From Methanococcoides vulcani (GTDB lineage Archaea > Halobacteriota > Methanosarcinia > Methanosarcinales > Methanosarcinaceae), in the NCBI RefSeq assembly GCF_900111645.1, contig NZ_FOHQ01000002.1:248001-312000 (forward strand): a DNA stretch of 64,000 nucleotides, in the 5' to 3' direction. The notes under the pieces are model-generated. The model saw only the letters and a list, made by a program, of their open reading frames with translations, did no database searches and had not been told where the DNA came from. The number at the start of each line of letters is the position of its first letter. Positions within the stretch are counted from its first letter, which is position 1. The translations under genes and the position numbers were made by a program. Shown here one piece after another: positions 8,160 to 29,288 of this stretch.

Positions 8160-8828
8160 TTATCTGACACCATCTGCGGTTATGGTGAATTCGCAGGTGG
8201 TACCTTCGGGACGGGACCGATGTTTCCAGAGCTTTGCGCGGCGTCTGCCGGTACCTGTTCTCTCAAGCTGGACGATCGTCTTGGAGATGTGTTCAAGACC
8301 AGTACCTCCTATGGGTTTGAGCGTATTGGTATTGATATCTGAGTATACCTGGTTGGTTATTACAACTACAATGCCCCGTTTACGCGCAAGGCTGTGAAGG
8401 AATCCGATCTGGTTTGAGAGCTCCCTTCTTGTCCTTATGCTTGAATCGTCATCGTCCAGTTCGAAACGGTAGTATGCGGTGGCAGAATCCACTATGATAA
8501 GGCCGACATTCTCGGTGCTTATCTTTTCAGTTTCCCTTACTGCAGAATACTGCTCTTCAAAAGTATGGGGTTCGAAGATGATTATGTCCTGTGCGATCTC
8601 TTTGGCATTCTCTCCGGCTATTTGCCTGAACCTGTCTGCTGAGATCCCTTCTGTGTCAATGAAAATAGCCTTTTTTCCGTTCTTAACACATTCAACAGCA
8701 AGCTGGAGGCATATGTTCGTTTTTCCACTGCCTGCTTCTCCGAATATCTGGGTAACTACTCCTGCTTCGAATCCGCCTCCCAAAAGTTCATCTATGGGCT
8801 GGCAGCCTGATGCTAGCTGTTTGTTTAT
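8160..8828 (-). CDS. radB: DNA repair and recombination protein RadB, apparently starting at ATA
   Basis: RadB is the short archaeal RecA/RadA paralogue that lacks the N-terminal HhH domain. Walker A GEAGSGKT (30-37) and Walker B LIIVD (110-114) are present. The first ordinary start, a TTG at 8783, would begin inside the conserved LLGGGF motif and remove the family's N-terminal NKQLASGCQPIDEL strand. That strand is encoded upstream in frame and begins after an ATA codon (8828-8826). A GAGGTG Shine-Dalgarno at 8840-8835 is six bases from this ATA, and an in-frame TAG at 8834-8832 blocks longer ORFs. I therefore extend the gene to 8828 (222 residues). Confidence 0.85.
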   Translation of the reverse strand: MNKQLASGCQPIDELLGGGFEAGVVTQIFGEAGSGKTNICLQLAVECVKNGKKAIFIDTEGISADRFRQIAGENAKEIAQDIIIFEPHTFEEQYSAVRETEKISTENVGLIIVDSATAYYRFELDDDDSSIRTRRELSNQIGFLHSLARKRGIVVVITNQVYSDINTNTLKPIGGTGLEHISKTIVQLERTGTGRRRAKLWKHRSRPEGTTCEFTITADGVR

Positions 8829-9220
8829 TTTCTACACCTCTGCTCGTGGGATGTATCTGGTATTATGGAATTTATGATATACATCTTTTGGCAAAGGGGA
8901 TTTGTCTGGTTGGTCTGATTTAATTGGTACCTCTATTGATAACAAACATGGTTACAATTTTCTCATTATAATGATGATGCGTTTGGACATTTGTTACCAC
9001 ATTTGTTACCATCTATGTTATCCTCTATGTTACATTGTATTCAGTTGTAGGTGTAAAAAGCATTATTAACTGAGAACGCCATACTATTGGTTTACTCATG
9101 TAGAGGTCTTTCCCGCATTATACCGGGGCTACTGAATGCGATTATTATTTTTCAGTTGCTGTGGGGGTTTGTGTGTTGGGTCTCTTGCTTATGTTTAAAG
9201 ATCAAATGGATGGAAGAACT
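8829..9220. other. Intergenic region between radB and the nrd operon
   Basis: This 390-bp stretch has no gene I can support. The radB ribosome site is at its left end. The middle holds the 12-bp repeat array annotated separately. The right end contains an open frame running into NrdH (GTG/ATG codons from 9161), but these residues are not conserved redoxin sequence. Confidence 0.6.
8987..9035. repeat. Tandem 12-bp repeats upstream of the nrd operon
   Basis: ACATTTGTTACC is perfectly repeated at 8987-8998 and 8999-9010. Two diverged copies follow head to tail at 9011-9023 and 9024-9035 (cores CTATGTTA), and a fifth, ACATGGTTAC, lies at 8946-8955. All have the same orientation. They are about 185-235 bp before NrdH and are the only unusual sequence in this promoter region, so they are candidate regulator sites. 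Confidence 0.6.
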
Positions 9221-18836: not shown

Positions 18837-19364
18837 TCATTCGATCTTACGTGCAACTGCTTCGATAGCCTCTACAAGACTATTCTTTGGCATGATGGTT
18901 GCAACAGGTATGCGAATTATCTTTTCAATAGTTGTGCTGACGATAGGTGCACACACAAGGGCTTTGGCACCTTCCCTTTCGGCACGTACGGCAGCGATGA
19001 TGGCTTCTTCCATTGATGTGGCAGAGTATTCCCTGATCGTGCAAAGGGTGCCGGAGATCTTTCTCTTTGTCTCACTGATATTGTCCAGCACAGGGCGTGC
19101 AGCTATGACTGCAATGAAATCTCCTTTTTCGGAACCCTCGATCGTCCGGATGGTCTTCACTATCTGGCGAAGTGTCCTCATGTTCGGTTCCCTGTTCCCC
19201 GACATTAGCTTATAAAGGGTGCTTGGGGGGATATTTGCATATTCTGAGAACTCGATTGCTGTGAGCTCAAGGTCTTCTTTTATGACTTTCAAAAGTGTGT
19301 TCTGAAAAGCCTCATCCGATTCAAAAGCAGCATCAATAACCTTATTTGCAACGCTAATATTCAC
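18837..19364 (-). CDS. COG1709-type Xre-family transcriptional regulator
   Basis: A 175-residue protein with an Xre-like helix-turn-helix at about residues 25-70 (EFSEYANIPPSTLYKLMSG) and a C-terminal domain containing GTLCTIREY and a repeated isoleucine/valine-rich core that may bind an effector. The architecture matches COG1709 predicted archaeal regulators. It is transcribed divergently from an ABC importer across 146 bp, so that operon is its most likely target. The annotated GTG start at 19364 has GGAGG only one base before it, which is too close; an in-frame ATT at 19358 would be seven bases away. Confidence 0.82.
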   Translation of the reverse strand: MNISVANKVIDAAFESDEAFQNTLLKVIKEDLELTAIEFSEYANIPPSTLYKLMSGNREPNMRTLRQIVKTIRTIEGSEKGDFIAVIAARPVLDNISETKRKISGTLCTIREYSATSMEEAIIAAVRAEREGAKALVCAPIVSTTIEKIIRIPVATIMPKNSLVEAIEAVARKIE

Positions 19365-28508: not shown

Positions 28509-29288
28509 ATGGCTTCTATCAATATTATGTCATGGAATGTGAATGGTTTAAGATCCATGGTGAAGAAAGGTTTTCTGGAATGGGTAGCTGAATCCCAGCC
28601 TGATATTCTCTGTCTTCAGGAGACCAAAGCACAGGAAAGGCAGCTTCCTACAAATCTGCGACATATCGATAGTTATATTCCTTATTTCTTTTCAGCAGAA
28701 CGGAAAGGTTACAGCGGTGTTGCGGTCTATACGAAATTACCTCCGGTAAATGTTGAATATGGTCTCGGAGAGATACGTTTTGACGTTGAGGGCAGGACTC
28801 TTATTGCAGAATATGAGGATTTCATTCTTTTCAACATATATTTCCCCAATGGAAAGGCTTCTGATGAGAGACTCCAGTATAAGATGGACTTCTATGATGC
28901 ATTTATGGAACGTGCGGACGGGTTCAGGGACGAAGGCAAGGATATTATCGTATGTGGGGATGTGAACACCGCCCACAAAGAGATCGATCTTGCACGACCC
29001 AAACAGAATGAGAAGTCATCCGGTTTCCTTCCTCAGGAGAGGGAGTGGATAGATACGTTCCTGGATCATGGTTATCTTGATACTTTACGTATGTTCGACC
29101 AGGGAGCAGAAAAGTACACCTGGTGGGATCTGAAGACACGTGCAAGAGATCGCAATGTTGGTTGGAGGATAGACTACTTCTTTGCAAGTGAGAGCTTGAG
29201 GGATCGGATCACTTCAGCTTATATACTACCGGAAGTTATGGGTTCTGACCACTGTCCAATTGGGATCGAGTTAGATATTGGTCAATAA
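28509..29288 (+). CDS. xthA: Exodeoxyribonuclease III / AP endonuclease
   Basis: This 259-residue member of the ExoIII/APE1 family cleaves DNA 5' to abasic sites in base-excision repair. Visible active-site motifs are SWNVNGLR at the start, LQETK with the catalytic Glu, GDVNTAH, the WRIDYF strand and the C-terminal SDHCPI with the catalytic Asp-His pair. Its ATG directly follows the ModE stop codon (TAAATG), so it is co-transcribed. A short ACAGCC/GGCTGT stem 20 bp downstream could end the transcript. Confidence 0.93.

Follow-up and report, generated by a model that had tools for sequence, protein, structure and literature searches.

The radB locus and its start

The window analysed here is a stretch of 64,000 nucleotides from Methanococcoides vulcani (contig NZ_FOHQ01000002.1, here called C8, positions 248,001 to 312,000). 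Its minus strand carries radB, for which we propose a revised coding sequence, given below with the elements that surround the start.

8160-8828, minus strand: radB, revised coding sequence, from the ATA at 8828; 222 codons plus a stop at 8160-8162
8826-8828, minus strand: ATA, predicted start codon of radB
8835-8840, minus strand: Shine-Dalgarno sequence GAGGTG, with a 6-nt spacer to the ATA
8832-8834, minus strand: in-frame TAG stop, which bars any upstream start of radB
8781-8783, minus strand: TTG, the next canonical codon downstream (codon 15 after the ATA), which we reject as a start
8874-8893, minus strand: promoter-like element TGCCAAAAGATGTATATCAT, BRE/TATA-like, upstream of radB and conserved among genera

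The minus strand reads GAG (8840-8838) GTG (8837-8835) TAG (8834-8832) AAA (8831-8829) ATA (8828-8826), followed by AAC AAA CAG CTA GCA TCA GGC TGC. The radB frame, taken from stop to stop, extends from the AAA at 8831 to 8160, and the first ATG, GTG or TTG within it is the TTG at 8783. No usable canonical start therefore lies upstream of the ATA in this genome. The product is a RadB protein, since in a profile search it scores 264.7 bits against TIGR02237, where the curated cut-off is 172.4, and covers positions 1-209 of the 210 in the model. The profile match begins at residue 3 (NF006861) or residue 13 (TIGR02237) of the stop-to-stop frame. In addition, residue 2 of the solved RadB chain 2cvf aligns to residue 5 of the window RadB, numbered from the ATA, and this places the ATA where members of the RadB family start. 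A non-canonical codon is thus found exactly at the slot where the homologues begin, outgroups having ATG at or near it. These data uphold the first-pass annotation, which had noted that the conserved RadB N-terminus precedes every usable canonical start, that an ATA sits where family members start, and that GAGGTG lies six bases before it.

The element TGCCAAAAGATGTATATCAT is nearly identical across Methanococcoides, Methanolobus and the g3 genomes and is degenerate in Methanosarcina. Its position, about 50 nt upstream, would imply a short radB leader that holds the Shine-Dalgarno sequence. The conservation of this element over several genera is striking, and it may perhaps serve as a regulator site as well.

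Conservation of the start slot in Methanosarcinaceae

The start slot was compared in 82 Methanosarcinaceae genomes, which represent all 14 genera seen. It is ATA in 76 of these and ATC in the other 6, all of genus g10; ATG, GTG and TTG do not occur there at all. An ATG at this position in relatives had been named at the outset as an observation that would overturn the proposed ATA start, and none was encountered in the 82. In two genomes (G068 and G071) radB is longer by one codon, with ATA ATA or ATA ACA at its start. A Shine-Dalgarno motif of the GAGGTG or GGGGTG type is located 5-8 nt upstream of the slot in 82 of 82 genomes, while the frame of the motif and the sequence of the spacer vary freely. 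This combination of a fixed distance with a free frame and spacer is expected of a start codon and not of an internal one. The codon that corresponds to the TAG of the window is TAA, TGA, TAC, GAC or AAG in relatives. In ten of the 82 genomes the interval from the upstream in-frame stop to Walker A is free of ATG, GTG and TTG. Upstream of the slot, 45 of the 82 have an open canonical codon, in many cases the GTG within the Shine-Dalgarno motif, and minor initiation there might conceivably occur in those genomes.

The slot was also compared with the rest of the gene. An alignment of 45 full radB genes contains 66 columns that are invariant in amino acid (65 besides the start slot) and none that is invariant in codon; the two other invariant isoleucine columns use ATC, ATT and ATA in mixture. 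On a radB tree, 16 invariant Lys, Glu or Gln columns, in which the third base may be A or G, have undergone a mean of 6.9 changes each. The start base on the same tree shows a single change, between A and C, and none to G. These change counts are rough, as the tree and the test both derive from one short gene. That comparable A/G sites change about seven times when the start base never becomes G nevertheless points to purifying selection against ATG as the force that would retain the ATA of radB.

A competing explanation accepts AUA as the real start and dispenses with gene-specific selection, supposing instead that the stringency of start selection is relaxed in this lineage, so that start codons drift. 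It draws on the start slots of other genes, described below, which switch among ATG, ATA, ATT and ACG. Drift of this kind, however, leaves unexplained why radB is never found at ATG in 82 genomes when comparable sites change so readily, and we regard it as unlikely, although it is the most serious of the alternatives.

Alternative positions for the radB start

The remaining alternatives place the start elsewhere. One is a mixed arrangement, in which GTG is used wherever the frame is open and ATA is used only in the other genomes. M. alaskense and its sister species, for example, have GTG-AAG-ACA-ATA, and there the frame is indeed open through the GTG. But this GTG is the Shine-Dalgarno sequence itself, the residues between it and the ATA are not conserved, and the ATA is just as invariant in the open-frame genomes as in the rest. 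Such a division of labor appears improbable.

Still less probable is initiation at a downstream canonical codon, which in the window would be the TTG at 8783 and would yield a truncated RadB. TTG is a legal start and Walker A lies downstream of it. Yet only 2 of 45 radB genes have TTG at that column, nearly all relatives having CTT, CTG, CTA or TTA, and many genomes lack any canonical codon ahead of Walker A. A start at the TTG would also remove SGCxxLDELL, a segment that aligns with RadA, RadB and Rad51. What has been conserved instead is the Shine-Dalgarno sequence and its distance to the ATA.

The first-pass annotation had raised the possibility that translation starts at the GTG at 8837 and that UAG is read as pyrrolysine, giving Met-Pyl-Lys-Ile and so on. 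The premise is sound insofar as a tRNA-Pyl(cta) is encoded on the contig that carries the window (C8:227208-227279) and the GTG and TAG share a frame in this genome. The reading itself fails in relatives, many of which neither retain the TAG nor put an amino-acid codon in its place within an open frame. TAA or TGA stands here in many of them, a single genome shows TAG-TAA, and Methanosarcina and others carry the GTG in a different frame although the ATA and its spacing are unchanged. The GTG at 8837 would, moreover, have no Shine-Dalgarno sequence of its own. We therefore give this proposal very little credence. The suggestion that a sequencing or assembly error had converted ATG to ATA, for which one wrong base in a single genome would be enough, is practically discounted by the recurrence of ATA in 76 independent species-level assemblies, closed genomes included.

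radB start codons outside the family

In the neighboring family f5, which contributed 19 radB loci, our reading of the aligned slot gave about 11 ATA, 3 ATT, 1 ATC, 3 ATG and one unresolved case. The near-cognate calls in f5 are less secure, since some of these loci have an open in-frame GTG upstream. Family f3 has ATG save for one ATC, families f18 and f12 have ATC, and in further outgroups, of which f7, f10 and the haloarchaea are examples, ATG mostly occupies the slot or lies close to it. Compared family by family, near-cognate starts of radB are thus recurrent, and ATA has become fixed only in Methanosarcinaceae.

A model for initiation at the radB AUA

Taken together, these comparisons make it very probable that translation of radB begins at the AUA at 8828-8826, directed by the Shine-Dalgarno sequence and dependent on near-cognate decoding by the initiator tRNA. 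In the scheme we envisage, the radB mRNA would be leadered and GAGGUG would pair with the 3' end of 16S rRNA, placing the 30S subunit at the AUA. Initiator Met-tRNA, the presumed decoder, would then read AUA as a near-cognate start, producing a protein that begins Met-NKQLASGC. Initiation at this codon is likely to be slow, so that AUA would cap the synthesis of RadB, and selection may act to keep the protein low. The alignment of the slot, the Shine-Dalgarno sequence, the blocked alternatives, the family-wide conservation and the purifying selection on the codon are established at the level of sequence comparison. As to why AUA has been retained, we put the chance that it serves to cap RadB dosage at about even. 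In Haloferax, RadB assists RadA as a recombination mediator (PMC5480776), and a mediator role makes control of its dosage plausible. Among the points that count against initiation at AUA, a gene for aIF1 is present in this genome, and a published study reports that this factor disfavors non-canonical starts (PMC8211752). We looked at the aIF1 gene for a feedback loop resembling that of infC and found none, as its start appears to be an ordinary ATG.

In prokaryotes, near-cognate starts are considered exceedingly rare. In bacteria infC, which encodes IF3, starts with AUU and is autoregulated, because IF3 discriminates against AUU. In E. coli the AUU start of pcnB limits a protein whose overproduction does harm. 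The radB start resembles that of infC in that a near-cognate AUN codon behind a Shine-Dalgarno sequence has been held over many genera by selection against AUG. It differs in that the codon is AUA or AUC, in that the archaeal host employs aIF1 and aIF2 instead of IF3, and in that RadB is not an initiation factor, so that autoregulation of the infC type does not apply. The likeness to pcnB consists in a near-cognate start that would limit a protein; pcnB, however, is bacterial and its case is not one of a family-wide AUA. The closest described counterparts of the protein itself are Haloferax volcanii RadB (PMC5480776) and the chain 2cvf, which belong to the same family and share the N-terminus of the window RadB, although radB in haloarchaea mostly carries ATG at this position or close to it, as noted above.

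The published baseline also speaks against an AUA start: a reconstruction of start codons in 36 prokaryote groups, comprising 61,358 ancestral AUG starts, recorded one change from AUG to AUU and lists none from AUG to AUA (PMC5622118). These counts presumably rest on annotated starts and hence would be expected to miss cases like the present one. Excerpts from a review of archaeal initiation name only AUG, GUG and UUG, and excerpts from a Ribo-seq paper on M. mazei mention ATG, GTG, TTG and CTG starts (PMC11456600). Our search of the literature outside subscription journals turned up neither an archaeal radB described as starting at AUA nor any other account of archaeal AUA starts.

Near-cognate starts at other genes

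A scan of one genome for non-canonical starts led by a Shine-Dalgarno sequence returned similar counts for many codons and consisted mostly of noise, so that a comparison of two genomes was needed. The window genome and G005 were compared over 341-352 orthologue pairs, drawn from sampled stretches of about 952 kb and 700 kb, respectively, and cases were checked in 36-40 relatives. About 5-10 of about 350 genes proved to have near-cognate or switching start slots. Some flagged pairs were discarded as noise, for example positions internal to radB, AAG and AGG hits, and C8:275989.

One of these genes lies in the window and provides a positive control for near-cognate initiation.

18837-19358, minus strand: gene for an HTH_3 regulator, with ATT at the start slot (19358-19356)

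The slot of this gene, which has GGAGG upstream, is ATT, ATA or ACG in 11 of 11 Methanococcoides, whereas almost every other genus has ATG there. It is the cleanest control, because sister genera define the slot by their ATG. A GTG or ATG occurs two codons upstream in several Methanococcoides, abutting the Shine-Dalgarno sequence; it is absent in G001, G004 and G005.

The other clear cases are outside the window. An mtxA-like methyltransferase gene (PRK14053; C8:334701) has ATA in 10 of 10 Methanococcoides and TTG or ATG in most others. A gene for an HAE3/MMPL transporter (C8:370041) likewise has ATA in 10 of 10 Methanococcoides, with ATT, ATC or ATA in most others and no ATG across the order in the 36-40 relatives compared; its paralogues have CTG at the start. 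The dimethylamine corrinoid protein gene mtbC (NF041607; C8:382655 and C5:201121) has ACG behind GGAGG in 21 of 21 Methanococcoides copies, and in other genera mostly ATG or ATT (the latter in copies of G016 and G020, for example), with ACG occurring as well. Since MtbC is a catabolic protein for which scarcity is not expected, its near-cognate start weakens the dosage argument made above for radB: such a start need not always serve to keep expression low. Further genes switch within Methanococcoides between ATG and ATA, ATT or ACG.

The radB start is probably one case of a wider habit of this lineage. We consider the odds evenly balanced on a broader proposal, that Methanosarcinales use a near-cognate repertoire of AUA, AUU, AUC, ACG and probably CUG behind good Shine-Dalgarno sequences in roughly 1-3% of genes, missed by rules limited to ATG, GTG and TTG, and that in a subset, radB foremost, selection against AUG has made the identity of the start codon a conserved dosage control. 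That a recombination gene is fixed at AUA throughout a family, and that further genes behave alike, contrasts with the accepted rarity of such starts, and the rules for translation starts in this lineage look looser than those of the textbook. Start-site annotation is probably wrong for some genes here, and in these genomes the annotated N-terminus may be incorrect for RadB and for further proteins. Methanosarcina offers a genetically tractable system in which to ask how the stringency of start-codon choice is set by aIF1 and aIF2, and whether an inefficient start can act as a dosage control.

Several minor observations were made in the course of the survey. An Exonuclease III-like gene (window position 28509, plus strand) starts with ATG here, where the aligned slot of G005 is ATT, and a sulfopyruvate decarboxylase-like gene outside the window (C5:95932) has ATG here and ATA at the same slot in G005. 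The mtxA-like open frame is 524 amino acids long in G005, G008 and G009, which suggests a fusion. Finally, an mtrA homologue in G018 (C37:13442-13891) contains an in-frame TAG that may reflect either pyrrolysine or an assembly fault.
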